From: Elusimicrobiota bacterium
GTDB taxonomy: Bacteria; Elusimicrobiota; Elusimicrobia; UBA1565
Assembly (NCBI GenBank): GCA_016212885.1
Contig: JACRDO010000060.1
Coordinates: 1 to 41,961 of the forward strand
DNA length: 41,961 nucleotides
Direction: 5' to 3'
Each line of letters begins with the position of its first letter. The stretch's first letter is position 1. Shown one piece after another: positions 21,686 to 39,828 of this stretch. The notes below the pieces were generated by a model that saw only the letters and a program-made list of their open reading frames with translations, searched no databases and was not told the DNA's origin. Made by a program: the position numbers and the translations under genes.

Positions 21686-21925
21686 TCAGCCGCCCGACAG
21701 CACCGGGAACAGCTCGACCTCGCAGCCCTCCTCGATGACGCTTTCGAGCTTCACGGCCTCGCCGCGGACCGCCACCATCATCACTTCGCCTTCCGGGATC
21801 TTGAGCTCTTCGAGCAGCTCCCGCGCCTTGAGGGGCCGCGGAGCGTCGATCCGGGCCTCCCCCTTCGCGCCCGGAAGGTAGTGCCTCAGGTTCGCGTGCG
21901 CGCGCACCCGGTATTCGATGGCCAT
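21686..21925 (-). CDS. MoaD/ThiS-like ubiquitin-fold protein
   Basis: A 79-residue beta-grasp protein ending in the diagnostic SGG, where the terminal glycine would be thiocarboxylated. MoaD-like proteins carry the sulfur used to make the dithiolene of molybdopterin or tungstopterin. The ATG at 21925 shares one base with the stop of the upstream oxidoreductase gene (TGATG); the frame also opens one codon earlier with TTG. The position next to a tungsten-type aldehyde oxidoreductase suggests a dedicated cofactor sulfur carrier, a pairing known from archaeal and bacterial AOR loci. Confidence 0.85.
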   Translation of the reverse strand: MAIEYRVRAHANLRHYLPGAKGEARIDAPRPLKARELLEELKIPEGEVMMVAVRGEAVKLESVIEEGCEVELFPVLSGG

Positions 21926-23772
21926 CAATCGATGCCGAGCGCGGCGAGCTTCTCTTTCGTCGGGATGCCGTCTTTGCTCCAGTTCCTGAGCTGGTAATAC
22001 CTGTAAAGCATGTTCCCCATGTCCGGCAGCACGTCCTTGGCCGAGCCGTCGGGCTTGGCTTCGGCGAAGAGCCTCGGCGGCAGGACGTCGTCCTTCCTGC
22101 TCACGCCGAGCTTGACGTTGTACATCCTTTTCAGGTTGAAGAGGCGCTCTCCCGTCAGGAGGACCTCGTCCATCGTCTCATCCCAGCCGCACACCAGGCT
22201 CAGCCACTCGGCGATCTTCTTCGGCCCCACCCTCCCGATGAACAGGAACTTGCATAGGCCCAGCGGGTTGAAGACGGACATGTAGTTCTGCATGTTGACG
22301 ACGATGGGCGGCTTGTCCGAGGAGAGGTGCGGGTTCGCAGGCGTCGTGTACCCGAAGTCGGGCGCCGGGATGCCCCGGTCGAGGAAGTAGGTGAGTCCCT
22401 CGAGGTGGCAGGCCCCGCGCACCGCGGTGGCGTAGTTGAGCGCCATGCTCACGTGCCCCCTCGGGTCGTGCGCCGGGTACTCGAGCCCCTTGGTGTGCAC
22501 CGCGAGCTCGGAGGCGTTATGGCCGAGCTTCTCGGCCGCCTTCTTCACGCCGAGCCCGAGGGTCCTGCCCACGTCTTCCTGGCGGCCGATCTTGTGGGTG
22601 AGCGCGACGACGCTCCCGCCGTTCCAGCCCAGCTCGAGCCCGCCCGTGTCCTTCTTGTCGAGGATGCCCCGCTCAAAGGCTTCGATCGCGAAGGCGATGG
22701 CCGCGCCGGTCGAGATGGTGTCCATGCCGTAGCGGTTGCACCATTCGTTGCTCTGGGCGATCGCTTCCGGGTCCTCGTTGAGGCAGTTCGAGCCGAGCAT
22801 CCCTATCGTCTCGTACTCCGGGCCGTGGCCGTAGAGGCCCAGCTTCTCGTTCTTGTAGATCTTGCCGCACCGGACCGGGCAGGCGTAGCAGGTGTAGTGC
22901 TTCTCCAGCATCAGCGGCTGCATGGCCTGGCCGCAGACCTTCTTCGCTCCCGCCTCCCAGCTGCCCAGCTGCCAGTTCTTGATCGGCAGGTCCCCGTACT
23001 TCTCCACCGCCTCGACCCCGCCGGAGGTGCCGAAGTTGGTCAGCCCGACGGTGTTCTTGCGGATCTCCTCGATGTCCGTCTTGAGCCGGGCCTTCAGCTC
23101 CTCCGGCCGCGCGATGGGCGTCTGGATGGAGGGCTCGCCGGAAACCACGATCGCCTTGAGCCCCTTCGCGCCCATGACCGCGCCGATGCCCCCGCGCGCC
23201 GCGACCCGCGAGTTCGGCGGGTCGAACACGATCGAGGAGATGGGCACCCCTTTCTCCCCGACCGGGCCGATCACGGCGATCTTCGCCCTGTCCGCGAAGC
23301 GCCCCTTGAGCAGCTCTGCGGATTCGTAGGTGTCCTTGCCGGCCAAATCCGCCGCGGGCTTGAACTCCACCCCGTCCTTGGTGACGCGGAGGAGCGTGAG
23401 CTCCCGGCGCTTGCCCGTCAGGATCATGCCGTCGAAGCCGGTCTTGCGGAACTCGGCCGGCCAGTGCCCGCCCACCGTGGCCTCGTTCCAGATGCCGGTC
23501 AGGGGCGATTTCGCGCATACGCTGAGCTTCGAGGTGCCGGGCAGGGCCCCGCCGGTGAACAGGCCCGAGATGAAGAGGAGCGGCGCGCTCTCGTCGAGCG
23601 GATCCATGGCGTTCGGGAAGTCGCAGGTCAGTATCTTCGCCGCGAGGCCCGAGCCGAGGAAGTATTTGCGCGCGTCCTCGGCCCCGAACTCCACGACCTC
23701 GGATGTCCCGGCCGTGAGGTCGATCTTAAGGAGCCGGCCGTGGAACCCGAACCTGCCGCTCTCGCCGCTCAT
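21925..23772 (-). CDS. aor: Aldehyde ferredoxin oxidoreductase (tungstopterin enzyme)
   Basis: A 615-residue protein of normal AOR length. The N-terminal domain has FHGRLLKIDLT and KYFLGSGLAAK. The 4Fe-4S ligands are C295, C298 and C302 in YTCYACPVRC, plus a fourth cysteine in NPLGLCKF near residue 508. The family oxidises an aldehyde to the acid and reduces ferredoxin, using a tungsten bis-pterin. Here it lies between an aminotransferase that would release a semialdehyde and a CoA-transferase, so malonate semialdehyde (or its methyl form) is the most likely substrate. The start is four bases after the aminotransferase stop. Oxygen sensitivity of the family implies anaerobic use. Confidence 0.92.
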   Translation of the reverse strand: MSGESGRFGFHGRLLKIDLTAGTSEVVEFGAEDARKYFLGSGLAAKILTCDFPNAMDPLDESAPLLFISGLFTGGALPGTSKLSVCAKSPLTGIWNEATVGGHWPAEFRKTGFDGMILTGKRRELTLLRVTKDGVEFKPAADLAGKDTYESAELLKGRFADRAKIAVIGPVGEKGVPISSIVFDPPNSRVAARGGIGAVMGAKGLKAIVVSGEPSIQTPIARPEELKARLKTDIEEIRKNTVGLTNFGTSGGVEAVEKYGDLPIKNWQLGSWEAGAKKVCGQAMQPLMLEKHYTCYACPVRCGKIYKNEKLGLYGHGPEYETIGMLGSNCLNEDPEAIAQSNEWCNRYGMDTISTGAAIAFAIEAFERGILDKKDTGGLELGWNGGSVVALTHKIGRQEDVGRTLGLGVKKAAEKLGHNASELAVHTKGLEYPAHDPRGHVSMALNYATAVRGACHLEGLTYFLDRGIPAPDFGYTTPANPHLSSDKPPIVVNMQNYMSVFNPLGLCKFLFIGRVGPKKIAEWLSLVCGWDETMDEVLLTGERLFNLKRMYNVKLGVSRKDDVLPPRLFAEAKPDGSAKDVLPDMGNMLYRYYQLRNWSKDGIPTKEKLAALGID

Positions 23773-23776
23773 CCGC

Positions 23777-25087
23777 CTAGATGCGCTCGAACGCCTTCCT
23801 CAGCCTCTTGATCGCGTCGTCCACCTCGGCCTTGCCGATGTTCATGGGCGGGCTGAGCCGGAGCACGTTGCCGTAGAGGCCGCCCTTGCCGATGAGGAGC
23901 TTCTCCTTCTTGGTCTCCTCGAAGAGCCTCGCGACCGTCTTCGGGTCCGGGGCCCGAGTCTTGCGGTCTAAGACGAGCTCGACCCCGCACATCAGGCCCA
24001 TGCCGCGGACGTCGCCGATGCAGGGGAACTGCTCCTGCAAGGCTCGGAGGTTCTGGCGCAGGTAGGTCCCGATCCTCTCGGCGTTATTGAGCAGGCCCTC
24101 CTCCTCGATGGCGTCGATGACGGCGTGCGCCGCGACGCAGGAGACCGGGTTCCCGCCGAAGGTTGAGATACTCAGGCCCCTGAGGCTCTCGGCGATCTTG
24201 TCGGTGGTGGCGGTCCAGCCGATGGGGATGCCGTTGGCCATGCCCTTGGCCGAGGTTAGGATGTCCGGGACCACGCCAAAGTGCTCGATCCCGAACCACT
24301 TGCCGCCGGTGCGGCCCCAGCCGGTCTGGACCTCGTCGGCGATGAAGAGGCCGCCGTACTTATGCACGATGTCCACGGCCACCTTGAAGTAGTCCATGGG
24401 CGGGACCACGAAGCCGCCCACGCCCAGGATGGGCTCGGCGAGGAACGCGGCGACCTTGCCGCTGGTCTCGGTCAAGATGAGCTCCTCGATGTCCCTGGCG
24501 CAGGCGAGGTCGCAGCCCGGGTACTCCAGCTTGAAGGGACAGCGGTAGCAGTAGGGCGCGTGCGCGTGCTTGATCCCCGGCATCAGGGTCCTGGAGATCC
24601 TCCAGGGCGCGTGGGCCGTGAGGCTCATGGCCATGGCCGAGCGGCCGCTGTAGGAGTGCCTCAGGGCGATGATCTCCTGGCTGCCCGTGCAGTGCTGGGC
24701 CGTGAGCACCGCCGTCTCGTCCGCCTCGGTCCCGCTGTTCGTGAAGAAGCTCCGCTTGATCCCGCGGGGGCAGATGCCGGAGAGCCTCTCCGCGAGGTCC
24801 GCGGCGGGCTGGGTGGGATAGAGGGTGGAGACGTGCTGGAGCTTCTTGAGCTGCTCGATGATCCGGGCGTTGACCTTGTCGTGGCAGTGCCCGATGGACA
24901 CGGTGAGGATCCCCCCGAAGAAGTCGAGGTACTTGTTCCCCTCCGCGTCGAACACGTGGCAGCCCTTGCCCGAGACGAGCGGGAGGCTCTCCTGGTAGTA
25001 GGTGATGACCGAGGGGTACAGGAACTCCTTGTACTTCTTCGTGACGTCCGAGTTCTTCAGGGTCTCGACTTTCATGTTCAGCGCCAC
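23777..25087 (-). CDS. Class III aminotransferase, probably beta-alanine specific
   Basis: A 436-residue PLP enzyme of the AGXT2-like class III group. Features are TNSGTEADETA (cofactor phosphate loop), IADEVQTGWGRTG (aspartate that binds the pyridine nitrogen) and TSAKGMANGIPIG, with the lysine that holds PLP. A cysteine-rich insert, YCYRCPFKLEYPGCDLACA, is typical of this subgroup. It overlaps the dihydropyrimidinase gene by ten bases. Next to ureide-hydrolysing enzymes it most likely transfers the amino group of beta-alanine or beta-aminoisobutyrate to pyruvate or 2-oxoglutarate, giving malonate semialdehyde or its methyl form. Other omega-amino acids are possible. Confidence 0.88.
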   Translation of the reverse strand: MALNMKVETLKNSDVTKKYKEFLYPSVITYYQESLPLVSGKGCHVFDAEGNKYLDFFGGILTVSIGHCHDKVNARIIEQLKKLQHVSTLYPTQPAADLAERLSGICPRGIKRSFFTNSGTEADETAVLTAQHCTGSQEIIALRHSYSGRSAMAMSLTAHAPWRISRTLMPGIKHAHAPYCYRCPFKLEYPGCDLACARDIEELILTETSGKVAAFLAEPILGVGGFVVPPMDYFKVAVDIVHKYGGLFIADEVQTGWGRTGGKWFGIEHFGVVPDILTSAKGMANGIPIGWTATTDKIAESLRGLSISTFGGNPVSCVAAHAVIDAIEEEGLLNNAERIGTYLRQNLRALQEQFPCIGDVRGMGLMCGVELVLDRKTRAPDPKTVARLFEETKKEKLLIGKGGLYGNVLRLSPPMNIGKAEVDDAIKRLRKAFERI

Positions 25088-26526
25088 CCTCCCTCGTCGA
25101 ATTGGCTCCTCTTGATGTACTTGCCCCGGCCTTTTTGGCCCACGAACTCGTCGTCCTTGGCCACGACCTTCCCGCGAGACATCACCAGGGTCGGGAGCCC
25201 CTCGAGCTCGAAGCCCTCGAAGGCGGAGTAGTCCACGCGGTGATGCGTGTTCTCCTTGGAGATCCGCCCCTTCTTCCCGGGATCGAACAGCACGAGGTCC
25301 GCGTCGGAGCCCACGGCGATGGTCCCCTTCTGTGGGTAGAGGCCGAAGATCTTGGCCGGGTTCGTCGCCGTGACGGCCGCGAACTGGCTGCGGCTGAGCC
25401 GCTTCTTCCTGACGCCGTAGGTGTAGAGCAGGTTCACCCGGTCACCGACCGCGGGGATGCCGTTGGGGATCTTGGTGAAGGCTTCCTTTCCCATGTCCTT
25501 CTGGCCCTTGAACCTGAATGAGCAGTGGTCGGTCGCCACGCTCTGCAGGAAGCCGTCGCGCAGGCCCTCCCAGAGCTTCTCCATGCCGGACTTGTCCCTG
25601 AGCGGCGGAGACATCACCCACTTGGCGGCCTCGAAGCCGTTCTTGCGGTAGAGGGAGTCGTCCAAGAGCAGGTACTGCGGGCAGGTCTCGGCCAGCACGA
25701 GCTGGCCGCGGCAGCGGGCGGCCTTGACCTCCTTGAGCGACTCCTGGCAGCTCAAGTGCACGATGAAGAGCGTGGCCCCGGCCATCTTGGCGAGAGCGAT
25801 GGCCCGGTGCGCGGACTCGCCCTCGGCTACGGCCGGATGGGCCGCGGGGTGGAACTCGGGGCCGGTCTTCCCCTCTTCGAGGAGGTGCTTCATGAGGTAG
25901 GAGAGCATGTCCCCGTTCTCCGCGTGGACCGAGAGCAGGCCGCCGTGCTTCTTCGTCACGCTCAGGACCTCGAGGAGCTGGGCGTCGTCCACCATGAGGG
26001 CGCCCTTGTAGGCCATGAAGCACTTGAAGCTGGGAATCCCGTCCCGGATGACCTTCACCATATCCGAGGCGATCTGGTCGTTGAAATCCACCAGGGCCAT
26101 GTGGAAGCCGTAGTCGATGACGGCCTTGCCAGCCGCCTTCTTGTGCCAGGCCTCGAGCGCTTCCAGGATGCTGCCGCCTTTTGAGGGGATCACGAAGTCG
26201 ATGAGCGTGGTGGTGCCGCCGCAGGCGGCCGCGATCGTCCCGCTCTCGAAATCGTCGGCCGAGACCGTGCCCATGAAGGGGAGCTCGAAGTGGGTGTGCG
26301 CGTCCACCCCGCCCGGATAGACCTCGAGGCCCTTGGCGTCCACGACGCGGGCGGCGGGGGCGGGCTCGATGCGCTCGCCGAGCTCCACGATCTTCTCGCC
26401 CCGGATCAGGAGGTCCGCTTTGAAGGAATCGGAGGCCGTGAAGACGGTCCCGCCCTTGATGAGCGTCTCAACGCCTTCGCCCTTGCGGACTTGCGCGTTC
26501 GCCGAGGCTTTGGTTTCGGTCTTCAT
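25078..26526 (-). CDS. hydA: Dihydropyrimidinase (D-hydantoinase family)
   Basis: A 482-residue cyclic amidohydrolase. Metal ligands can be placed at H77 and H79 in GGVDAHTHF, carboxylated K168 in FKCFMAYKG, H201 in SVHAEN, a histidine in FIVHLS and the aspartate in ATDHCSF. It opens the ring of dihydrouracil or dihydrothymine to N-carbamoyl-beta-amino acids. Hydantoins are alternative substrates. It starts 13 bases after the beta-ureidopropionase stop and overlaps the aminotransferase start by ten bases. No dihydropyrimidine dehydrogenase is encoded in the window, so the reduced pyrimidine must come from an enzyme elsewhere or from outside. Confidence 0.93.
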   Translation of the reverse strand: MKTETKASANAQVRKGEGVETLIKGGTVFTASDSFKADLLIRGEKIVELGERIEPAPAARVVDAKGLEVYPGGVDAHTHFELPFMGTVSADDFESGTIAAACGGTTTLIDFVIPSKGGSILEALEAWHKKAAGKAVIDYGFHMALVDFNDQIASDMVKVIRDGIPSFKCFMAYKGALMVDDAQLLEVLSVTKKHGGLLSVHAENGDMLSYLMKHLLEEGKTGPEFHPAAHPAVAEGESAHRAIALAKMAGATLFIVHLSCQESLKEVKAARCRGQLVLAETCPQYLLLDDSLYRKNGFEAAKWVMSPPLRDKSGMEKLWEGLRDGFLQSVATDHCSFRFKGQKDMGKEAFTKIPNGIPAVGDRVNLLYTYGVRKKRLSRSQFAAVTATNPAKIFGLYPQKGTIAVGSDADLVLFDPGKKGRISKENTHHRVDYSAFEGFELEGLPTLVMSRGKVVAKDDEFVGQKGRGKYIKRSQFDEGGWR

Positions 26527-26539
26527 GTTCTTCTCTCCC

Positions 26540-27412
26540 TTACGGCAGAAGCTTGACCAACTCGTCGTACGTCTCCGGCCGGCGGTCCCGGTAGAACTGC
26601 CAGACGTTGCGGACCTCGGTGATCTTGTCGAAGTCGATGTCAGCTGTCACGATCTCGTCCTTCTCCCCGCCGCCCTCGGCCAGGATCTCGCCCCTGGGGT
26701 TGACGAAGTAGCTGTGCCCGTAGAACTTCCCGAGCTTCCAGGGCCTCTCCACGCCCACGCGGTTGATGCAGCCCATGAAGTAGCCGTTCGCCACCGCGTG
26801 CGCGGGCTGCTCGAGCTTCCAGATGTGGTCCGAGAGGCCCGCGACCGTGGCCGAGGGGTTGAACACGATCTCGGCCCCGCGCAGGCCGAAGAGCCGAGCA
26901 CCCTCCGGGAAGTGGCGGTCGTAGCAGATGTAGACCGCGACCTTGGCGTAGCGGGTCTCGAAGACGGGGTAGCCGAGGTTGCCGGGCTTGAAGAAGAACT
27001 TCTCCCAGAAGCCCGCGACCTGCGGGATGTGGATCTTGCGGAACTTGCCGAGGACCTTGCCGTCCGCGTCGATGACCGCGGCGGTGTTGTAGTACACCCC
27101 GGCCATGGCGCGCTCGTAGAGGGGAGCGACGATGACCATGCGGTATTTCTTCGCGTACCTGGAAAGCAGCTTCGTCGTGGGGCCGGGGACCGGCTCGGCC
27201 GCCGCGTACCACTTGCCGTCCTGCGAGGGGCAGAAGTACGGGGTGGTGAAGATCTCCTGCAGGCCCAGGATCTGCACTCCTTTCTTGCCCGCCTGGTCGA
27301 TGAGGCCGAGGTGCTTCTTGAGCATGGCGTCCTTGATCCGCTGGACGCTTGCCTCTCCCTCATGGAGCGGCAGGCTGCACTGGATGAGGCCGCACTTGAC
27401 GATTCTGGACAT
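26540..27412 (-). CDS. Beta-ureidopropionase (N-carbamoyl-beta-alanine amidohydrolase)
   Basis: A 290-residue nitrilase-superfamily enzyme. The catalytic triad is E53 in LGLQEIF, K126 in GKFRKIHIP and C163 in VYICYDRHFPE. The sequence with FFKPGNLGYPVFETR is close to beta-ureidopropionases. It releases ammonia and CO2 from N-carbamoyl-beta-alanine. The frame is open to 27559, but MSRIVKCGLIQCS at 27412 is preferred since GGAGAGG lies just upstream and the extra codons would run through a strong hairpin. This is the first gene of the seven-gene operon and follows a structured leader. Confidence 0.92.
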   Translation of the reverse strand: MSRIVKCGLIQCSLPLHEGEASVQRIKDAMLKKHLGLIDQAGKKGVQILGLQEIFTTPYFCPSQDGKWYAAAEPVPGPTTKLLSRYAKKYRMVIVAPLYERAMAGVYYNTAAVIDADGKVLGKFRKIHIPQVAGFWEKFFFKPGNLGYPVFETRYAKVAVYICYDRHFPEGARLFGLRGAEIVFNPSATVAGLSDHIWKLEQPAHAVANGYFMGCINRVGVERPWKLGKFYGHSYFVNPRGEILAEGGGEKDEIVTADIDFDKITEVRNVWQFYRDRRPETYDELVKLLP

Positions 27413-27455
27413 GGTTCCTCTCCGATTACACAACAGCTCCTTATACCCCCGAAAA

Positions 27456-27501
27456 CCCCCGCAGCGCCGAGCGGAATAGTTCGGCGCTTGTCGTGCGGGG
27501 G
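27456..27501 (-). promoter_or_regulatory. Bipartite hairpin in the leader of the pyrimidine operon
   Basis: Outer arms CCCCCGCA (27456-27463) and TGCGGGGG (27494-27501) pair over 8 bp. Inner arms GCGCCGA (27464-27470) and TCGGCGC (27481-27487) pair over 7 bp, with a 10-base loop and a 6-base bulge. In the minus-strand transcript the structure is followed by TTTTCGGGGG and then the start codon 43 bases later. It could be a transcription attenuator or a protein-binding leader. Just upstream are two more short inverted repeats: CTCCTT/AAGGAG (27503-27518) and GCGATAT/ATATCGC (27520-27538). I see no consensus promoter that I trust between 27413 and 27652. Confidence 0.5.
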
Positions 27502-27652
27502 CCTCCTTTTTGAAGGAGCGCGATATGAATAATATCGCTGGAAATCCATAAAAGCACATTTTGGGAAGCCGGGCAATATAGGCCGAGAAGGCCCGGCTGC
27601 GCTGGCCGTTGGGACCTTGTTCCTCATGCGCGTTTCAAGCTACAACAAGCGT

Positions 27653-29885: not shown

Positions 29886-29969
29886 CGGTCGTCTATCAGC
29901 TGACCTTCGATATCGGAAGTATATCAGAAAATCGAGGTGTTCGGCCGGCTGCTATACCACCTCTCTGCT

Positions 29970-30011
29970 CCGTGTAGCATTGATATCATATATTATGTCA
30001 TTGCTACACGG
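29970..30011. promoter_or_regulatory. Distal palindrome upstream of the Xre regulator
   Basis: Perfect 10-bp arms CCGTGTAGCA (29970-29979) and TGCTACACGG (30002-30011) enclose a 22-base AT-rich centre with GATATCATATATTATG. It starts with the same CCGTG-type ends as the second palindrome next to the regulator gene, about 110 bases downstream, so both may bind the same protein. Confidence 0.5.
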
Positions 30012-30081
30012 CGTAGAAGATGACTGCCATCCCCTGCCCCGCACCGGCACCCTTCGCCTGCTCCGCCGCAACCGCGCTCCC

Positions 30082-30123
30082 CCGTGCATTATTAATATAA
30101 TATGTTATGTTATAATTGCACGG
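30082..30123 (+). promoter_or_regulatory. Palindromic promoter at the Xre start codon
   Basis: Arms CCGTGCA (30082-30088) and TGCACGG (30117-30123) enclose a 28-base AT-only-like centre. The centre ends with TGTTATAAT, an extended -10 element whose TATAAT (30111-30116) is a perfect consensus. The ATG follows seven bases later at 30124, as in the vapBC promoter, so the transcript should be leaderless. The whole -10 region lies inside the palindrome, which would allow the Xre product to shut off its own gene. Confidence 0.6.
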
Positions 30124-30497: not shown

Positions 30498-31355
30498 ATG
30501 CGGCATGCGGCCCTCTGCCTCGCCCTCTTCGCCTTGTTTTCAGCTCAGGCCGCGGAGCCCCGGCCCCGCTTAGACCTCCGCTTCGGCCGAATCCCCTTCA
30601 TCAACGCCCGCGACATGATCTCCAGCCACGAGAACCTCATGCGCTACCTCACAAAAAAGCTCGGCCTGGAGGTCCGGCTCGTCCTGACCCCGGACTACGA
30701 CGCGCTGACCCGCTACATGAAGGAAGGCAAGATCGACGTGGGCTGGTTCGGCACCCTCAACTACCCCAAGGCCCGCGAGGAAACCGGCTGCACGGCGATC
30801 CTGAAGACCCGGCGCTTCGGCGCCGCCTCCTACCGCGGCATGATCATCACCCGCGCGGACAGCGGCATCAAGACCTTGAAGGGCCTCAAGGGCCATTCCT
30901 TCGCCTTCACCGAGCCGAGCTCCGCTTCCGGGTATTTCTACCCCCGCATGACGCTCCTATCGGCGGGCATCGACCCGGACAAGGACCTCAAAGCCCAGTG
31001 CATCAAGGGCCACGACAAGGTCGTCTACAACGTCTTCCTCGGGAAATACGACGCCGGCGCGGTCTACGACGACGCGCGGGAGAAGCTCTCCTCCCCCCGG
31101 CAGCGCAAGAGCGTCGTGGTCCTGGCCAGGACCAAGGAGATCGTGAGCGAACCCATCGCTGTCCGCAAGGGCCTGGATGGGCGCCTGGTGCGCAAGCTCA
31201 AGGCCGCGCTCCTCGCCTTGGACGTGAAGCGGCCGCAGGACAAGGACATCATCGGCCCGACCGGCAACGTCCAGCGCTTCGTCGAGGCCGCTGACGCGGA
31301 CTATGACTCTGTCCGCGAGGACCTCCGGCTCTACGAGAGCCTCTTGAAGCGCTGA
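30498..31355 (+). CDS. PhnD-like periplasmic phosphate/phosphonate-type binding protein
   Basis: A 285-residue exported protein with a short signal peptide (MRHAALCLALFALFSAQAAE). The body matches the PhnD/TauT periplasmic binding fold: LRFGRIPFINARD, then LTRYMKEGKIDVGWFGTLNYPKAR, then the domain-crossing TFAFTEPSSASGYFYP-like segment with the S-S-A-S anion-binding run. It ends GAVYDDAREK. There is no ABC permease or ATPase nearby. Instead the stop shares one base with the start of a membrane diguanylate cyclase, so it probably serves as the ligand sensor of that cyclase and not in transport. The ligand is unknown. Confidence 0.85.
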   Translation: MRHAALCLALFALFSAQAAEPRPRLDLRFGRIPFINARDMISSHENLMRYLTKKLGLEVRLVLTPDYDALTRYMKEGKIDVGWFGTLNYPKAREETGCTAILKTRRFGAASYRGMIITRADSGIKTLKGLKGHSFAFTEPSSASGYFYPRMTLLSAGIDPDKDLKAQCIKGHDKVVYNVFLGKYDAGAVYDDAREKLSSPRQRKSVVVLARTKEIVSEPIAVRKGLDGRLVRKLKAALLALDVKRPQDKDIIGPTGNVQRFVEAADADYDSVREDLRLYESLLKR

Positions 31356-33088
31356 TGGCAGGCTGGAGCCTGAAGTGGAAGTTCATGTTCGCGGTCTCCG
31401 CCATGATCGTGCTCGTCATGGCCGGGGTCGGCGGCGTGATCCTGAGCCGCGAGCGGCGCATGATTGCGCAATCCCTGGAGCAGAAGGGCTTCCTCGTCGC
31501 CGGCGAGCTCGCCATCGCTTCCGCGGATAAGGTCGCCACCAACGACTTCAGCGAGCTCTCCCACTACGTCAACGAGGTCCGCAAGGACCGCGAGATCGCC
31601 TACGTCTACATCTTCGAGGACTTGAACAAGACCTGCGTCGCCGCCGCAGACGAGGGCGGCAGCCACGAGGCCCAGGGCTGGCCCTACACGCGCTTCAAGG
31701 ACCAGGCCTCGCTCGCCGCGTTCAAAGCCGAAGGCCCCAGCCACCTCCATTTCTCCGTAGGCCGGCGAAAGTACATCGACATCACGGTCCCTATCATGAT
31801 GGGGAAGGACAGCCGCTACGGCCTGGTCCGCGTGGGCCTCACCCTCGACCACATGAACGCGGAGCTCCGGCGCACCCGCGACACCGTGCTCGCCATCTTC
31901 GCGGCAGCTGTCCTGCTCGGCGTGCTCGTCTCCGGCTTCCTGGAGAGCATCATCCTCGGCCCGGTCGGCGCCCTGGTCAAGGGCGTGGACGCGGTCTCGG
32001 TCGGCGACTTCTCCCACCGCATCGAGGTCCCCACCGGCGACGAGCTCGGCCAGCTCGCCGACGCCTTCAACCGCATGACCCACAACATCTCGGTCCTCTA
32101 CAACGTCTCCAACGCGATGAACTTCATCGCGGACACGGACAAGCTCCTCAACCTGATCCTCGATAAGGCCCTGGAGGCCCTGCGGGCCGAGCGAGGGTCC
32201 ATCATGCTCTTAGACGACGCGGGCGACCACCTCCAGGTCAAGGTCGTGCGCGGCTTGAGCGCGCCCAGCTACCGGTTCGTCAAGATCCCGCTCGGCTCGG
32301 GCGTCGCGGGGCAGGTGGCCAAGACCGGCAAACACCTCATCGTCAACTCCGGAAGCCAGGACCCGCGATTCAAGAGCTTCCAACAGAGCCAGGAGAGCGA
32401 GCGCAAGGTCCGCTCGCTTTTGTGCGTCCCCCTGCAGATGGAGGAGAAGACGCTGGGCTGCATCAACGTCGTCAATAAGTCGAGCGGCGGGGACTTCAAC
32501 GAGGACGACGCCAAGCTCCTCACCGTTCTGGCGAGCCAGGCGGCCGTGACCCTCAACAAGGCCCGGCTCTACGAGGAATCGATCACGGATGGGCTCACCA
32601 AGCTCTTCATCCACCGCTATTTCCAGGTCCGGCTCGACGAGGAGCTCAAGCGCGCCCGCCGCTACGCGGCGAAGGTTTCGCTCGTCATGCTCGACATCGA
32701 CCATTTCAAGGCGCTCAACGACTCCCACGGCCACCAGCAGGGCGACATCGTCCTGCGCCAAACGGCCCAGCTCGTGCGGGAATCCATCCGCGAGAACCTC
32801 GACATCGCCTGCCGCTACGGGGGCGAGGAGTTCACCATCATCATGCCCGAAACCGAGCGCGGCGGCGCCTTTACGGTCGCGGAGAGGCTCCGCAAGAAGG
32901 TCGAAGCCACGGATTTCCCAGGCCAGGGCGAGCCGGTCAAAGTCACCATCAGCCTCGGCGTGGCGCAGTTCCCCGACGACTCCCCGGACAAGAACTCCCT
33001 CATCAGGCGCGCCGACATCGCCCTCTACCACTCCAAGGAGAACGGCCGCAACCGCACCTCGGTCTACGAGGGCGCCATGGAGGATTAG
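31355..33088 (+). CDS. Membrane sensor diguanylate cyclase (HAMP-GAF-GGDEF)
   Basis: A 577-residue protein. TM1 spans about residues 10-30, a periplasmic domain of about 140 residues follows, TM2 is near 170-195 (LAIFAAAVLLGVLVSGFL), HAMP near 195-250 (VSVGDFSHRIEVPTGDELGQ), GAF near 255-405 and GGDEF in the last 165 residues. The active-site loop reads GGEEF, which is catalytic in type. The residues that would form the RxxD inhibitory site read ENLD, so product inhibition is probably absent. It should make cyclic di-GMP in response to a periplasmic cue, presumably presented by the PhnD-like protein encoded just before it. The two genes overlap by one base (TGATG). Confidence 0.92.
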   Translation: MAGWSLKWKFMFAVSAMIVLVMAGVGGVILSRERRMIAQSLEQKGFLVAGELAIASADKVATNDFSELSHYVNEVRKDREIAYVYIFEDLNKTCVAAADEGGSHEAQGWPYTRFKDQASLAAFKAEGPSHLHFSVGRRKYIDITVPIMMGKDSRYGLVRVGLTLDHMNAELRRTRDTVLAIFAAAVLLGVLVSGFLESIILGPVGALVKGVDAVSVGDFSHRIEVPTGDELGQLADAFNRMTHNISVLYNVSNAMNFIADTDKLLNLILDKALEALRAERGSIMLLDDAGDHLQVKVVRGLSAPSYRFVKIPLGSGVAGQVAKTGKHLIVNSGSQDPRFKSFQQSQESERKVRSLLCVPLQMEEKTLGCINVVNKSSGGDFNEDDAKLLTVLASQAAVTLNKARLYEESITDGLTKLFIHRYFQVRLDEELKRARRYAAKVSLVMLDIDHFKALNDSHGHQQGDIVLRQTAQLVRESIRENLDIACRYGGEEFTIIMPETERGGAFTVAERLRKKVEATDFPGQGEPVKVTISLGVAQFPDDSPDKNSLIRRADIALYHSKENGRNRTSVYEGAMED

Positions 33089-33094
33089 CGCTGG

Positions 33095-34918
33095 ATGCCC
33101 GAAGCCCCGCAGGCGGAACACTTCCCCGGCAGCTCCGCCTACGCGGTCCCCAGCCTGGTCAAGGACCTCGTGGACCAGTTCGACCGGCCCCTCGACTTCC
33201 TGCGCGAGCTCGCCCAGAACTCCATCGACGCGGGCTCCAACCGCATCGACGTGAGCCTGGAATACGTCCAGGACCCGGCCGCGGCCCGCGCCTTAGACCT
33301 GCCGCCTCCCGCGCCCGGCGGCGGCTACGCCGTCATCCGCGTGGAGGACGACGGCGAGGGCATGGACGAGCGCACCATCGACGACTACCTCCTGGTCCTC
33401 TTCCGCTCCACCAAGGAGGAGGACTTCACGAAGATCGGCAAGTTCGGCATCGGCTTCGTCTCCGTCTTAGCGCTCCGGCCCGAGCGCGTGCGCGTCCATA
33501 CCTGCCGCAGCGGGGAGAGCTGGCGCCTGGACTTCCCTGACTACAAGAGCTACGAGAAGTTCCTGGTCCCCGAGCTGAGGGAGGGCACCTTGGTCGAACT
33601 GGTCAAGGTCCTGCCCCGCGAGTCCTACGCGGAGCTGGCCGCCCAGGCCCGGGCGGCCCTCGTGTTCTGGTGCAAGCACTCCGAGGCGCGCATCTACTTC
33701 CGCGACCGCTCCTCGGGCGAGCCGGCCTCCTGCGTTACCGAGCCCTTCGACTTGCCGGGCGGAGCCTCGCTCCGCTACGAAGAAGAAGGGACAGAGATCC
33801 TGTTCGGCTTCACTGCCGAGGAGAAGCCCTTCTGCGGGTTCTACAACCGCGGGCTGACCCTCAAGGAAGCCCGGCAGGTCCTTATCCCGGGCGTCGAGCT
33901 CAAGGTCAAGTCCCGCTACATCGAGCATACCTTGACGCGGGACAACGTGCTGGAGGACGCCAACTACGGCAAGCTGATGAAGCGGCTCAAGCGCGCGGCC
34001 CGCAGCGAGCTCTCGGATAAGCTGCGCAAAGACCTTGAGGACATCGCCCTGCGCCTTTCGCGCCTCAACGGGGCTCCCTCGAAGGAGACCCAGGCCCTCG
34101 AAGAGGCCTGGCGCAGGCGCCTGCCTTTCCTGCGCTGGCTCTTCGCCGGGTACTTCTCCCGGTGGAAGCGCTCCGATTGGGCCATCTTCCCCGGCCTCTG
34201 CGGCCGCGTCTACTCCCTGAAGGCGGTCCGGAAGGCCGCCGGGGACGCGGGCCGGAGGGTCTTCTTCGACTCGGCCCCCAACAACGTGACCAAGGGCCTC
34301 CAATCGCTCGGGGTCCCGGTCTTGATCCCGGGGCAATGGGTCGAGCTGGCGGCCGCTTGGGCCTCGGCTCGAGCGGAGCCCGCCTCGCAGGCGTTCATCC
34401 TTCCGCGGGTGCTCCCGGAGGAAGGCCTTCCCGGCGCGCACCGGGAGTTCCTTCAGGCCCTGCGCCGGCTCGACGCCGACTCCGGCGCGAAATACAGGGG
34501 CATCCTGGCGGCCGACTTCAACACCCCCGGCTCCAGCATCCAAGGCAGGCTCTTCACGGTCCAAGAAAAGCCCGGCTCGCTCAGCGCAGCTGACCAGGCG
34601 CCGGTCTCCTCCCTGTTCCTGCTCCCGCGCGCGCGGCGCTGGGCCCTGCTCCACGCCGGCCATCCGGCCTTCACGCGCCTCTGCCGCCTGCACGCCGCTG
34701 AGCCGGGCCTGGCGGCCTACCTGTGCCTGAAGATCATGCGCCTGCACGACGGCGAGGTCCCCCACGGCAAGATGAGCCGCTACTGCAACCTGGCCGAGAA
34801 GGCGGAGCTGCGCCTGCTGCAGGCGGCGCTGCGCGCCGCCCCATCGGCGGGCCATAGCGCCGATGGGACGGCGCGAGCGGAGCACGACTTGCGCGCCGGG
34901 CCCGGAGGGCGAAGATGA
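33095..34918 (+). CDS. HSP90-like GHKL ATPase, large protein
   Basis: A 607-residue protein. The N-terminal GHKL ATPase is complete: N box ELAQNSIDAGSN (near 38-49), G1 EDDGEGMDE (near 88) and G2 KFGIGFVSVLAL (near 116), followed by HSP90-like strands. The layout is like HtpG or MutL N-domains, not histidine kinases, since there is no phosphoacceptor histidine and the ATP lid segment is TKEEDFTK. The middle and C-terminal parts are not a family I know. The start is six bases after the cyclase stop and the stop overlaps the next gene by four bases (ATGA). It probably works as a complex with the next protein. Confidence 0.82.
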   Translation: MPEAPQAEHFPGSSAYAVPSLVKDLVDQFDRPLDFLRELAQNSIDAGSNRIDVSLEYVQDPAAARALDLPPPAPGGGYAVIRVEDDGEGMDERTIDDYLLVLFRSTKEEDFTKIGKFGIGFVSVLALRPERVRVHTCRSGESWRLDFPDYKSYEKFLVPELREGTLVELVKVLPRESYAELAAQARAALVFWCKHSEARIYFRDRSSGEPASCVTEPFDLPGGASLRYEEEGTEILFGFTAEEKPFCGFYNRGLTLKEARQVLIPGVELKVKSRYIEHTLTRDNVLEDANYGKLMKRLKRAARSELSDKLRKDLEDIALRLSRLNGAPSKETQALEEAWRRRLPFLRWLFAGYFSRWKRSDWAIFPGLCGRVYSLKAVRKAAGDAGRRVFFDSAPNNVTKGLQSLGVPVLIPGQWVELAAAWASARAEPASQAFILPRVLPEEGLPGAHREFLQALRRLDADSGAKYRGILAADFNTPGSSIQGRLFTVQEKPGSLSAADQAPVSSLFLLPRARRWALLHAGHPAFTRLCRLHAAEPGLAAYLCLKIMRLHDGEVPHGKMSRYCNLAEKAELRLLQAALRAAPSAGHSADGTARAEHDLRAGPGGRR

Positions 34919-37464
34919 GCATGGGCGAGGTGCGCGTTGGCTCGGGCTCCTTTAAAGTGGACCGCTCGCGCGCTCTGGATAAGCTCATGCGCTTCCAGCT
35001 GCCGGATGCCCGCATGTTCCTCGTTCCGTGGGTCCAGGCAGCTGTGGCGAGCGGAGCTTCCCGCATCCGCATCCTGCCCCAGCTCGGCGGCATCGAGATG
35101 AACTTCGACGGGGACCCTTGGACCGTGGGCGAGCTCCAGGACCCTTATCGCTTCCTCTTCGAGGATGACCCGGACGGCATCCGCGCCCGCAACCGGGAGC
35201 TCGCCGTCGGGATACTCTCGGCCCTGCGCCTTAAGCCCGCGCACATCTCCCTCACCTTCGATGACCGGGTCGAGCGGGTCCTCCACATCAAGAGCCTCAC
35301 CGAGGACTTCCTGGAGTCGGATACCGCGGCGCCCCAGAGCAAATACGCCAGGAAGCGGGACAGCGAAACCCGGCTCATGCTCTGGGTCAGCCTCCAGCCG
35401 CCTTTCGACGACGCGCTCGCCTACGTCCAGACCCTCTGCCGCCATTGCCCGATCCCCATCCAGCTCCGGCGCGACGTGATCAATGCGAGCGCGGACCCCC
35501 GGGAGGACCCCCTGCGGGTCTTTTTCAAAGAGCAGGGCATCCGCGGGGAGCTGGCGCTCTCGCCTGGGGCCCTTGCTTTCTCAGGCATCGACCTCGTCAC
35601 CCACGGCGCGACCATAGCCGTCGAGCAGGCGCGGCTCTCCGGGGCGCAGGGCCGCGGCTTCGTGTGCAACGACGGCTTCCGCAAGAGCCTCTCGCAGGCC
35701 GGCGTGATCAAGGACGAGCGCTATGAAGCCTCCCTGGCTCTCGTGCAGAGAAGCTCCGAACAACTCCTCGAGCGCGCCATGAACTTCGTCCGCGGCCATG
35801 GGGCCAAGGCCGGGAAGCTGCTCCTGGCCCCCCAGCTGAGACGGCACTGGATGGATTGGGAGGCCCAAAGCCTGGCTGAGATGATCCTCCAGCGGTTCAG
35901 CCGGGTTGACCCCAGCGGGAAGGAAGCGGACATCCTTCGCCGGATGTCCTTGGCCGTCGCGGCTCTTCGCTCAGCCTCTTCGGCGCGCATGAAGGAATTC
36001 AAGCAGGGCAGGCTCTCTCCCTTATGGGAGGCTCCAGCCCTCTTCGACACCCAGGGCGCGCCATTGTCCCTGCGGGAGCTCGATGATCAGCGCCTTTGGC
36101 TCGGCTACGTGCCCATGGCAGAGGACCCTCTGGCCGGCGGAGCAGAGGGCTTCCGGATCGCATGGATCTTCAAGGACTGCGAGCGGCGCTTCATCCAGGA
36201 CTTCTTTCCGAATGCGAAGTTCGTGCAGAGCTCGGACTTCTCCGGGGCCAGGCCCGCGCTCAACGAGCCCAACCTGCTCGCGGCCGTCCCCTTCCGATTC
36301 GGCAAAGCCGTCGGGGAGATCGGCCTCTCTTTGACGCCGCACACCCGCAGCTCGCGCATCCGCTGGCTCAGGGACGGCCGGCCCATCTCGGTCTCCTTCC
36401 AGCAGCTCAAGGGGCTCAGGATCGAGGCCGCTGTGGAGAACCCCGCGCTGGGCAGGGCGCGGACCGTGAAGGAGGAGACGCAGTCCGCGGCCGAGTGCCT
36501 CAACGCGATAGCTGAAGCCGCGCTGGGAGCCTACCGGAAGATCGCCGCGGAGTACGACCCCTCCCAAGCCGTTCCCCGCCAGGCCGTCATCCGCGAGCAT
36601 CTCCTGGACCTGGCAACGATGTCCTGGGACCCCGAGCGCGGAGCTTGGAAGGCCCACGCCTGGCTGGAGGAGCTCGCCTTGTTCCGCGATGCCCGCGGCT
36701 CGATGCTTTCCATGCGCGAGCTCCGCGAGGCCGCCGCGGCGGGAAAGGCCCGCCGCCTCTCCGCCTCGCCGCATCCAGAGTCGCTGAGGGAGATCACCTA
36801 CGGCTACCCGGACCACATCCAAGCCCTGTTCGGCTCCTCCAAGCTGGTCACAGGCATCGAGCCTATCCAGCAGGCGAAAGCACCCGCGGCGCCGCCCCCT
36901 TCGGCGAGCGGAGAACGGCCTCGCCTTTCGGGGACGGCGTTCCCAAAACCGCCGCCCCCACCCAAGGCCAGGCGGAAGCTTCCCGCAGCCTCTGCCCCCG
37001 CCACTTCAGTCAAGCCGGCGGCTCAAGAGCTCCCTCGGACGGAACCTCAGCCGCAAAGCCGGGCTGAGCCGGCGTCGGCGGAGGACCTCGTCCTCACTCC
37101 GCAGGGCGAGTTCCGCCGTTGGCTCAAGGACCTCTTCCTCGGAAACGCCTCTCCCCTGCAGCCTGAGCAGATCGCCGCGGTGCGTCTCGAGCCCCTGCAA
37201 TGGGAGGGGTTGATCGTGAGCGCCTCCTCCAAGGAAGTGACGCTGAACACGGCACACCCGCTCATCCGCAGCCTGGATGCAGCGGGCCCCCTGGAGCGCC
37301 GGCTCCCATATCTCGTCTCGATTTTCTACACTGCGCTCAACCGGGCCGCGCCGGAGATCACGGACGAGGCGGACATCCAAGCCCAGCTGGCCCTGGTGGA
37401 CTATTTGTTGGAGCCCGAAGCCCGGAGCAAACCTGTGGAACCTTCGAGCGATCGCGGGGTCTAA
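34915..37464 (+). CDS. Degenerate GHKL-like partner protein
   Basis: An 849-residue protein. Its N-terminal region looks like a distant, inactive relative of the preceding GHKL protein: VQAAVASGASRIRILPQLGG sits where the N box and following strand would be, and FDGDPWTVGEL where the G1 box would be, but the catalytic asparagine and glycine-rich boxes are missing. Residues about 655-715 are a proline- and alanine-rich linker (KAPAAPPPSASG, PKPPPPPKARRK), followed by a C-terminal helical domain of about 120 residues. It is translationally coupled to the upstream gene and lies 18 bases before the VIT/VWA gene. I infer an active plus inactive ATPase pair; the function is unknown. Confidence 0.72.
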   Translation: MSMGEVRVGSGSFKVDRSRALDKLMRFQLPDARMFLVPWVQAAVASGASRIRILPQLGGIEMNFDGDPWTVGELQDPYRFLFEDDPDGIRARNRELAVGILSALRLKPAHISLTFDDRVERVLHIKSLTEDFLESDTAAPQSKYARKRDSETRLMLWVSLQPPFDDALAYVQTLCRHCPIPIQLRRDVINASADPREDPLRVFFKEQGIRGELALSPGALAFSGIDLVTHGATIAVEQARLSGAQGRGFVCNDGFRKSLSQAGVIKDERYEASLALVQRSSEQLLERAMNFVRGHGAKAGKLLLAPQLRRHWMDWEAQSLAEMILQRFSRVDPSGKEADILRRMSLAVAALRSASSARMKEFKQGRLSPLWEAPALFDTQGAPLSLRELDDQRLWLGYVPMAEDPLAGGAEGFRIAWIFKDCERRFIQDFFPNAKFVQSSDFSGARPALNEPNLLAAVPFRFGKAVGEIGLSLTPHTRSSRIRWLRDGRPISVSFQQLKGLRIEAAVENPALGRARTVKEETQSAAECLNAIAEAALGAYRKIAAEYDPSQAVPRQAVIREHLLDLATMSWDPERGAWKAHAWLEELALFRDARGSMLSMRELREAAAAGKARRLSASPHPESLREITYGYPDHIQALFGSSKLVTGIEPIQQAKAPAAPPPSASGERPRLSGTAFPKPPPPPKARRKLPAASAPATSVKPAAQELPRTEPQPQSRAEPASAEDLVLTPQGEFRRWLKDLFLGNASPLQPEQIAAVRLEPLQWEGLIVSASSKEVTLNTAHPLIRSLDAAGPLERRLPYLVSIFYTALNRAAPEITDEADIQAQLALVDYLLEPEARSKPVEPSSDRGV

Positions 37465-37482
37465 GAAGCCGGAGGACGAACG

Positions 37483-39828
37483 ATGAACCCATTCCAGAAA
37501 AGGACGCGCATCAGGAATTTGCTCATTCTGGCCGCGGCCTTTGCCGCGGCTCCGGCCCAGGCCCAGCACCTGATCGCCTGGCCCATCGGACGGCCCGCGC
37601 CCATCCTGGTCCCTCCGTGGCCAAGGCCTCCGCGGCCCATGCCCATGCCGGAGCCCCGGCCGGACGTGATCGGCCTCCCGCTCGGAGGCCAGCACCTCGA
37701 GGGCAATGTCCGCGGCCAGGTGGCCCAGCTCTGGCTGGAAACCGTGTTCAGCAACGACACCCCCCAGAGGCTCGAGGGCGAGCTGTTCCTCCCCATCCCG
37801 GCCGACGTGGTCATCGACAAGATGGAGATGCGCCTGGGCGAGAAGGTGATGAAGGCTGAGCTGCTGGACGCCAACCAGGCTCGGACCACCTATGAGAACA
37901 TCGTCCGCCAGATGCGCGACCCGGCCCTGCTGGAGCTGCAGTCCGAGAGGCTCTTGCGCGCCCGCGTCTACCCCATCGAGCCGCACTCCTCCGTCACGCT
38001 CCGCTTCAGCTACACGCAGGTCCTCCCCCTGGCCGGAGGCCTCTACACCCTGCGGCTGCCCCTCGCCAACGTCGATCGGAAGGAGACGGCTCAATCGGTG
38101 AAGGTCAACCTCCAATCCGAGACCCCGATCCGCCTGCTCTACTCCCCCACCCACGCCGTGACCATCCACAAGGAAGGCGACAAGAAGGCCAGCGTCGAGT
38201 ACAAGGCCGCGGGGACCGGCGGAGAGATGGTGGTCCTCTACTCCCTGGCCGAGGGACGGCTGGCGTCCTCCCTGCTGAGCTACCGCGAAGAAGGAGAGGA
38301 CGGCTATTTCATGCTGAGCCTCTCCCCGAGGGTGCGGGCCAGCGCCGAGTCCGGGCCCAAGGACATCATCTTCCTCGTGGACCGCTCGGGGAGCATGGAA
38401 GACGACGGCAAGATCCTCCAGGCCCGCAAGGCGCTCAAGTCCAGCATCAACCACCTCTCCCCCAATGACCGGTTCGGGATCATCGACTTCGCCACCGGGG
38501 TCGAGGCTTTCTCCGGCGCCCTGGTCAGCGCGGACCCCGGCAACAGGCAGCGAGCCCAGAGCTACGTGGACAAGATTGAGGCCTCAGGCGGGACCAACCT
38601 GCAGGGGGCCCTGGAAGAGGCGATCCGGATGCTTGAGGCGGGGAAGTCCCCGGAGCGCATCCCCATGCTGCTCCTGGTGACGGACGGGCTTCCCACGGTC
38701 GGCGAGACCCAGACCGACGGCCTGCTCAGGCTGGTGCAAAGCCGCAACGCCGCCCTCAAGACCCGGTTCTTCTGCCTCGGCGTGGGCAAGGACGTCAACA
38801 GCCTGTTCCTGGACAAGCTGGCCGAGGGCCAGCACGGCAGCCGGGACTACGTCCTGCCGGGCGAGGATATCGAGGTGAAGCTCGGCCAGATGGTGGACCG
38901 CATCGCCAAGCCCGCCTTCAGCAACGTCCAACTGCAATGGAGCGGCGTCGAGGCTTCCCAGCTCTACCCGCGCGACATCACGGACATCTACTACGGGGAC
39001 CCCGTGGTGCTCTTCGGCCGCTACCCGAAGGAGGGGCAGGGCCAGCTGATCCTCTCAGGCAGGTCCGCAGGCAAGGCGGCACGGGTGGAGATACCGGTCG
39101 ATTTCCCCAAGACAAGGACCCAGGAGAATTACCTGCCCAGGCTCTGGGCCTATAAGAAGATCGCCCATCTGCTCGACGAGGTCCGCCTCGCAGGGGGCAA
39201 CTCCGAGATCATCGACGAGATCAAGAAGCTGGCCAGGCGCTACGGCATCGTCACCCCCTACACCTCGCTCCTGATCGCGGAAGACAGCGACATGGCCCAG
39301 TTCCGGCGGCCGCAGCCCTCAGGCGGGGGCGACTTCGCCATGGAGCAGATGCGGGAGGACGCCGGCGGAGCCTCCCCGGCGTCCGCGGTCCGAGGGCAGG
39401 CGTTCAGCCGGGCCCTCACGAAAGCGAAGTCCGGGTCACTCAGTTCCCTGATTGGCGCGGCGCAGTCCAGCGCAATCGGCCCCATGGCGTCGGCGGACTC
39501 GGCGGGGGGAAAGGCCGCGGCGCAATCACCCGCGGAAGCCGCTGAAGCCAAGGCCTTCGCTAAATCGGAAAGAAGCCTCCCGCAGAGGCCGCAGGCCTCC
39601 GAGATGCGGCAGATCGGCTCGAAGACCTTCTACAAGCGCGGCGACGCGTGGGTGGACGGCGCCTTCGAGGCCGAGAAAGGGCTGGCGGTGGAGGAGATCG
39701 AGTTCCTCAGCCCCAGGTATTTCGACCTGCTCAAAGACCACCCCGAGGTCCGCGGCTGGCTGTCGCTCGGCAAGAACGTGACCTTCGTGCTGGGACGCAA
39801 GGCGTACCGAATATCCGGAAAGCCTTGA
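37483..39828 (+). CDS. Secreted VIT and VWA domain protein
   Basis: A 781-residue protein with signal peptide ending APAQAQ (residues 1-28). A VIT domain spans about 60-190 (QLWLETVFSNDTPQRLEGEL, NVDRKE). The VWA domain begins near residue 295 with the metal site DRSGSMEDD (D-x-S-x-S) and has the later threonine and aspartate in GGTNLQGAL and LLVTDGLPT. The C-terminal 200 residues are alanine-rich and low complexity, ending with a small folded piece. Proteins with this pair resemble inter-alpha-trypsin inhibitor heavy chains and act in adhesion or protein binding at the cell surface. GGAGG lies seven bases before the ATG. It is last in the apparent operon. Confidence 0.88.
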   Translation: MNPFQKRTRIRNLLILAAAFAAAPAQAQHLIAWPIGRPAPILVPPWPRPPRPMPMPEPRPDVIGLPLGGQHLEGNVRGQVAQLWLETVFSNDTPQRLEGELFLPIPADVVIDKMEMRLGEKVMKAELLDANQARTTYENIVRQMRDPALLELQSERLLRARVYPIEPHSSVTLRFSYTQVLPLAGGLYTLRLPLANVDRKETAQSVKVNLQSETPIRLLYSPTHAVTIHKEGDKKASVEYKAAGTGGEMVVLYSLAEGRLASSLLSYREEGEDGYFMLSLSPRVRASAESGPKDIIFLVDRSGSMEDDGKILQARKALKSSINHLSPNDRFGIIDFATGVEAFSGALVSADPGNRQRAQSYVDKIEASGGTNLQGALEEAIRMLEAGKSPERIPMLLLVTDGLPTVGETQTDGLLRLVQSRNAALKTRFFCLGVGKDVNSLFLDKLAEGQHGSRDYVLPGEDIEVKLGQMVDRIAKPAFSNVQLQWSGVEASQLYPRDITDIYYGDPVVLFGRYPKEGQGQLILSGRSAGKAARVEIPVDFPKTRTQENYLPRLWAYKKIAHLLDEVRLAGGNSEIIDEIKKLARRYGIVTPYTSLLIAEDSDMAQFRRPQPSGGGDFAMEQMREDAGGASPASAVRGQAFSRALTKAKSGSLSSLIGAAQSSAIGPMASADSAGGKAAAQSPAEAAEAKAFAKSERSLPQRPQASEMRQIGSKTFYKRGDAWVDGAFEAEKGLAVEEIEFLSPRYFDLLKDHPEVRGWLSLGKNVTFVLGRKAYRISGKP

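Follow-up and report, generated by a model that had tools for sequence, protein, structure and literature searches.

A probable composite operon in an Elusimicrobiota genome containing an Hsp90-like ATPase and its degenerate relative

Organization of the locus

The window analyzed here, 41,961 nucleotides in length, corresponds to one whole contig (G000:C174) from a metagenome-assembled Elusimicrobiota genome of 3.83 Mb that comprises 174 contigs and is 91.6% complete. Within it lies a run of five plus-strand genes encoding a PhnD-family binding protein, a membrane diguanylate cyclase, an Hsp90-like ATPase designated GHKL1, a relative of that ATPase designated P4, and a VIT/VWA protein (Table 1). 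The spacings claimed in the original prediction, a reading of the sequence that preceded this analysis, agree with the open reading frame listing (-1, +6, -4, and +18), and a Shine-Dalgarno-like GGAGG is found ahead of both GHKL1 and the VWA gene. That reading did not list a sixth gene, located 23 bp upstream of the PhnD gene and encoding an XRE-family regulator. Further upstream are two palindromes with a common outer frame (CCGTG..GCATT / AATTGC..CACGG). Judging from the sequence of this region, it is plausible that the palindromes and the XRE gene constitute an autoregulated promoter, with the XRE protein serving as a repressor, likely self-regulating, that would control the composite operon. 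The tight spacing implies that the genes are co-transcribed in this genome; five codirectional, closely spaced genes are an ordinary bacterial operon, and such an arrangement alone is no evidence of joint function. Elsewhere in the window, the minus strand at 21925-27559 carries an aldehyde ferredoxin oxidoreductase (Pfam), and the next three open reading frames resemble, from their translations only, an aminotransferase, a dihydropyrimidinase, and a nitrilase-type amidohydrolase, possibly reflecting reductive pyrimidine degradation.

Table 1. Features of the operon and its upstream region (positions in the window).
Feature	Position	Strand	Characteristics
Long palindrome	29964..30017		54 bp; 27-nt arms, 81% complementary; candidate operator of the XRE regulator
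Second palindrome	30082..30123		42 bp; 19-nt arms; ends at the XRE regulator start codon; putative regulatory site
XRE-family HTH regulator, 116 aa	30124..30474	+	HTH_3 40 bits; mobile mystery protein A-like 43.9 bits, under the cut-off of 122.6
PhnD-family periplasmic binding protein, 285 aa	30498..31355	+	Phosphonate-bd 220 bits; N-terminal signal-like sequence
Membrane diguanylate cyclase	31355..33088	+	TM, sCache_3_2, TM, HAMP, GAF, GGDEF (Pfam); 1-bp overlap with the PhnD gene
GHKL1, Hsp90-like ATPase, 607 aa	33095..34918	+	HATPase_c_3 42 bits; 6-bp gap after the cyclase
P4, putative pseudo-ATPase relative of GHKL1, 849 aa	34915..37464	+	No Pfam family; 4-bp overlap with GHKL1
VIT/VWA protein, 781 aa	37483..39828	+	VIT and VWA (Pfam); hydrophobic N-terminus; 18-bp gap after P4

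Modular composition of the operon

The original prediction read the five genes as a single system that may couple an external signal, through c-di-GMP, to assembly or export of the VWA surface protein by the GHKL pair, and it named dispersal of the genes in close relatives as the observation that would speak against this proposal. Searches with GHKL1, PhnD, and VWA (57 related genomes each), with P4 (248 genomes of the phylum), and with the cyclase (11 pair-bearing genomes), after which gene neighborhoods were read, revealed exactly such dispersal: the complete run was seen in the window only, and wherever relatives carry the modules, these are placed on separate contigs. Specifically, the same-genus genome G229 carries the PhnD and cyclase genes on C11, GHKL pairs on C25 and C83, and its best VWA relative (29% identity) on C31, while the corresponding genes of G251 are found on C96, C61, and C206, and the GHKL pair and VWA orthologue (64%) of G260 on C17 and C24, respectively. 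The implied co-transcription and the Shine-Dalgarno sites between the genes speak for a single system; against it stand the separate contigs, the absence of any c-di-GMP receptor domain recognized by Pfam in the last three proteins, and the origin of the nearest VWA orthologues (62-64%) in another family of the order. Because the modules are dispersed, the five-gene signaling-to-surface system was rejected and is considered highly improbable, and the dispersal likewise leaves the supposed link between an external signal and surface-complex assembly unsupported. Taken as a whole, the best explanation, which is held to be probable, is that the run, a composite operon specific to this lineage, joins three independent modules, namely an oxyanion sensor, an Hsp90-like machine with one live and one dead member, and a separate VWA protein. 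Co-expression of the GHKL pair with the oxyanion/c-di-GMP sensor would then stem from recent recruitment or from an accident of the genome, and the comparison of relatives lends no support to a functional link, which may nonetheless exist.

The first module, proposed earlier to be a sensor pair composed of a binding protein without a transporter and a GGDEF cyclase, withstood comparison with other genomes. The unit is kept alone in two relatives, G229 (77/72% identity, 4-bp overlap) and G251 (66/72%, 1-bp overlap), and in neither is a GHKL gene close by; PhnD orthologues of 66-77% identity are present in loci L102 and L103, and cyclase orthologues of 72-73% in G229 and G251. No permease gene adjoins PhnD, and the best PhnE match in the whole assembly scores 23.1 bits against a cut-off of 216.7, a lack on which a transport role was rejected. 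The binding protein falls below the PhnD equivalog model TIGR03431 (158.2 vs. 261.1 bits), with no PhnE above cut-off in the genome, and above that of the broader subfamily TIGR01098 (175.8 vs. 112.05). Its nearest solved structures are PtxB, PhnD, HtxB, ArrX, and AioX, and by analogy with these its ligand is likely an oxyanion of the phosphite/phosphonate/arsenic group. AioX is marked by a pocket cysteine, Cys106, and the three PhnD orthologues conserve a cysteine, Cys98. The cyclase has a GGEEF active site and an inhibitory site that reads ExxD in place of RxxD, the arginine being absent from the two cyclase orthologues as well. In the working proposed here, the periplasmic PhnD-like protein would bind a phosphonate- or phosphite-type ligand and, once loaded, contact the sCache domain of the cyclase such that c-di-GMP output changes.

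Homologues of PhnD across the phylum mostly precede a membrane sensor of approximately 480 aa, usually with a 4-bp overlap. Four of these sensors were scanned, and each proved to be an sCache-HAMP-HisKA-HATPase histidine kinase; several can be aligned to the window cyclase over its sensor half. This arrangement matches that of AioX/AioS, a sensor of arsenic oxyanions (PMC5908839), with which the window shares a PhnD-fold binding protein, the absence of a transporter, and a gene position directly before a membrane sensor; the output of AioX/AioS is a histidine kinase, however, whereas the window, L102, and L103 have a GGDEF cyclase and so fall outside the AioXSR type. A comparable logic is found in NspS-MbaA, a polyamine/c-di-GMP receptor in which a periplasmic binding protein signals to a membrane c-di-GMP enzyme (PMC8967002), although that system combines a PotD-type protein with GGDEF-EAL, and the window a PhnD fold with an sCache sensor and GGDEF without EAL. 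The design of the PhnD-cyclase pair is a variation on a known one, with c-di-GMP as the output in the window, G229, and G251. Another PhnD-like protein of this genome, encoded at L043 (7976-11490; G000:C74), has a 1-bp overlap with a LuxC/AMP-binding fusion protein.

The VIT/VWA protein is an independent, ordinary module that has no tie to the other genes beyond this contig. Orthologues occur without any of the other four genes at 60-64% identity in G260 and G210 and at 43-47% in G257, G225, G250, G211, and G085. Its order of VIT followed by VWA and its secreted type are those of the marine sortase targets described by TIGR03788, to which it scores 288.5 bits, below the cut-off of 551.65. In the proposed scheme it would be a separate secreted protein forming the third module. 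The MoxR-vWA conflict systems described in 2020 were also considered and set aside; GHKL is absent from the text of that paper (PMC7159879), and the window run lacks MoxR.

Sequence and predicted structure of GHKL1 and P4

The noteworthy part of the locus is the middle pair rather than the five-gene run. The earlier reading of its members as an intact Hsp90-like ATPase and an inactive relative is borne out by both motifs and predicted fold. GHKL1 retains every motif of the Bergerat fold (N-box, G1, and G2) together with an Hsp90-like catalytic arginine, with E38, N42, D85, G87, G89, T112, K113, G115, G118, G120, and R282 invariant among 19 sequences from three phyla. R282 is located in a TRDNV motif of the middle domain, placed like the SRE motif of Hsp90, and its fold and position suggest that it is the counterpart of the Hsp90 catalytic arginine. 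A profile of 16 GHKL1 sequences matches HtpG, Hsp83, and MutL in the PDB, and a single-chain AlphaFold (AF2) model based on the window protein together with its relatives (pLDDT 86.7) finds TRAP1 as its best Foldseek match (E 5e-19), with a probability of 1.00 for Hsp90/TRAP1/HtpG.

P4 aligns with the GHKL1 profile and has lost the ATP-site motifs. When nine P4 sequences are combined into a profile, hhalign aligns it to the GHKL1 profile over 248 columns spanning the N-terminal and middle domains (probability 93.5, E 2.3e-7), and a P4 model produced in the same manner (pLDDT 80.4) again returns TRAP1 as the best match (E 9e-12) and a probability of 1.00 for Hsp90/TRAP1/HtpG, findings which rule out an unrelated protein. 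The GHKL1 and P4 models give moderate TM-scores (0.3-0.5), a level that multidomain chains with differing domain angles may be expected to show. In the hhalign alignment, window P4 has P38, A42, F64, G66, and P68 at the N-box and G1 equivalents, lacks two of the three second-loop glycines (G115 and G118), and carries glutamine in place of R282; the N-box Glu/Asn is missing from all 19 P4 sequences aligned. Because these positions are lost, P4 is, by sequence, a pseudo-ATPase. Beyond its degenerate GHKL and middle domains it contains further modules, a proline-rich linker (approximately 654-719), and a conserved C-terminal helical domain, and P4 variants range widely in length, from 522 to 1873 aa.

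Despite sharing with HtpG, Hsp90, and TRAP1 a GHKL N-domain, a middle domain with arginine at the catalytic position, and an overall fold found by Foldseek, GHKL1 is too distant in sequence for the PF00183 or HtpG models (15.7 bits vs. 371 with PRK05218), and differs further in having a dead paralogue encoded by a separate gene and, in many loci, AAA+, coiled-coil, and X330 neighbors. The GHKL1-P4 pair is Hsp90-like by fold and motifs and lies outside the PF00183/HtpG family as delimited by curated models. Among the best curated sequence matches of GHKL1 are those of sacsin, which fall under their cut-offs (SACS, 28.8 vs. 32.8; NF047352, 43.9 vs. 50 bits). A repeated Hsp90-like layout is known in sacsin (PMC3629688), from which the pair differs by its two-gene layout. 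Canonical HtpG (PF00183) is a separate gene that occurs in 4 of the 57 relatives and is absent from this entire genome. The notion that GHKL1 substitutes for missing HtpG is unsupported: most relatives lack HtpG whether or not they have the pair, which is also carried by three of the four HtpG-containing relatives.

Distribution and proposed function of the GHKL1-P4 pair

Three GHKL1-P4 pairs are present in this genome (the window, L026, and L027), and close GHKL1 homologues occur in 12 of the 57 relatives. A scan of one genome per species, covering 84,980 species, returned long GHKL1 matches from Elusimicrobiota. Three other MAGs, one of Myxococcaceae, one of Candidatus Eremiobacterota, and one more, matched over the N-domain at 41-45%, and the remaining matches are short and resemble generic GHKL proteins. 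Within the phyla of the Eremiobacterota and Myxococcota loci, homologues were found in 13/148 and 23/195 genomes, respectively. Among 43 GHKL1 loci, four had no readable downstream gene; a P4-like gene comes next on the same strand in 31 of the 39 remaining, from Elusimicrobiota, Myxococcota, and Eremiobacterota, at gaps of -17 to +43 (exactly -4 in 17). Part of the locus set was chosen through P4, which favors the pair; among loci found via GHKL1 alone, some 20-22 of roughly 27 readable have P4. Eight loci lack P4 as the next same-strand gene, two of which have it after a doubtful antisense ORF; the Eremiobacterota set includes L213, L214, L252, L254, and L255, where no P4 adjoins GHKL1. In L138 and L139 the P4 match is weak (E about 1e-5) and limited to the N-terminal part. 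Conversely, short P4-like proteins (406-467 aa) without an adjacent GHKL1 directly follow another protein in L032 (7053-12459), L036 (6709-10385), and L030 (7758-10573), so pairing is not obligatory. In L032 the P4-like gene follows a Reg_prop propeller protein, a homologue of which takes this place in L036, and directly precedes a dCache histidine kinase, with 4-bp overlaps.

In a tree of 41 GHKL1 proteins the window copy groups with L026 and L028 (99/95), and Elusimicrobiota are split from the rest at 100/100, indicating that the pair is old and largely vertical in descent. Distances among GHKL1 proteins correlate with those among P4 proteins (r 0.873 for 29 pairs; 0.791 for 16 Elusimicrobiota pairs), with none of 1000 permutations as high, and each P4 therefore travels with its own GHKL1. 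Linked genes can be co-inherited in this way without their products being in physical contact.

Many loci contain a longer operon, in which the order coiled coil (355 aa), X330, AAA+ (523 aa), and GHKL1 recurs in 12 loci from all three phyla, followed mostly by P4 and often by a 115-aa protein; L213 has a thioesterase-like gene in place of P4. The three upstream genes precede the pair in L027, L029, L033, L041, L105, L112, L133, L247, and L250. Their products yielded no informative Pfam identity beyond the AAA domain, and X330 and the 115-aa protein are uncharacterized proteins of these operons. The window pair belongs to a sub-branch without the AAA+ part.

GHKL1 and P4 most likely constitute a hetero-oligomeric Hsp90-like machine, for which partner binding and clients are presumed. 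GHKL1 would bind ATP and close its N-domain against P4, clamping as Hsp90 does, and P4, whose degenerate N-terminal and middle domains keep the Hsp90 fold, would serve as the permanently ATP-free, fixed half of a heteromeric clamp. The long C-terminal half of P4, with its proline-rich linker and helical domain, may offer a platform for a client or AAA+ partner, and in many relatives the AAA+ ATPase, coiled-coil protein, and X330 would join from upstream. We infer the physical complex and its remodeling activity, as we do the ligand of the sensor and any c-di-GMP link to the pair. A broader and more tentative proposal is that of an ancient bacterial Hsp90-like heteromer in Elusimicrobiota, Myxococcota, and Eremiobacterota, composed of an active ATPase and a dedicated pseudo-ATPase paralogue and often equipped with its own AAA+ protein and coiled-coil scaffold.

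Two other readings of the pair were weighed. Hsp90s are homodimers, and GHKL1 could likewise be an ordinary Hsp90-like homodimer, with P4 a co-chaperone or substrate adaptor that borrows the fold without forming half of the clamp; the great differences in P4 length and the five Eremiobacterota-set loci without an adjoining P4 agree with such an arrangement. P4 nonetheless retains the N-terminal domain of the fold as well as the middle one, and in most cases its reading frame overlaps GHKL1; the homodimer is regarded as unlikely. Less probable still, and quite unlikely, is that the pair is part of a defense or conflict system, for which its patchy distribution, its several copies per genome with changing neighbors, and the proximity of one copy to Cas genes in this genome might be taken to argue. 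The pair satisfied no PADLOC system model, the sole cross-match being a weak one of GHKL1 to TmtA (19 bits) with none for P4, and no effector domain was recognized; in addition, other copies adjoin metabolic genes such as mtnA, the tree is mostly vertical, and a plasmid search with GHKL1 gave no match. The defense assignment was rejected on the lack of a PADLOC match to P4.

No description of the GHKL1-P4 pair was found in the literature searched, a search thin in subscription papers, and the pair, recurring in three distant bacterial phyla, appears to be undescribed. The two ATP sites of Hsp90 homodimers are hard to separate. If the heteromeric machine is real, a natural pair of live and dead proteins would provide a ready test case for the role of the second ATP site, and would add to bacteria a protein-remodeling machine, often with an AAA+ partner, that is kept across phyla.

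Several neighbors of individual copies may be recorded. On contig G000:C128, at 5694-9782 of L026, two Cas genes lie beside the GHKL1-P4 pair and converge on it, one encoding part of a Cas12b truncated where the contig ends (419.8 bits) and the other a fusion of Cas4 and Cas1 (680 bits). In L031 (5486-9964) and L035 (5017-9574), both of one genus, the genes after the pair encode a further P4-like protein of greater length and a Ser/Thr kinase. Lastly, in the Eremiobacterota-type loci L139 (9503-9940) and L138 (9434-9850), the gene immediately ahead of GHKL1 encodes a cyclophilin peptidyl-prolyl isomerase, a neighbor that might suit an Hsp90-like protein.
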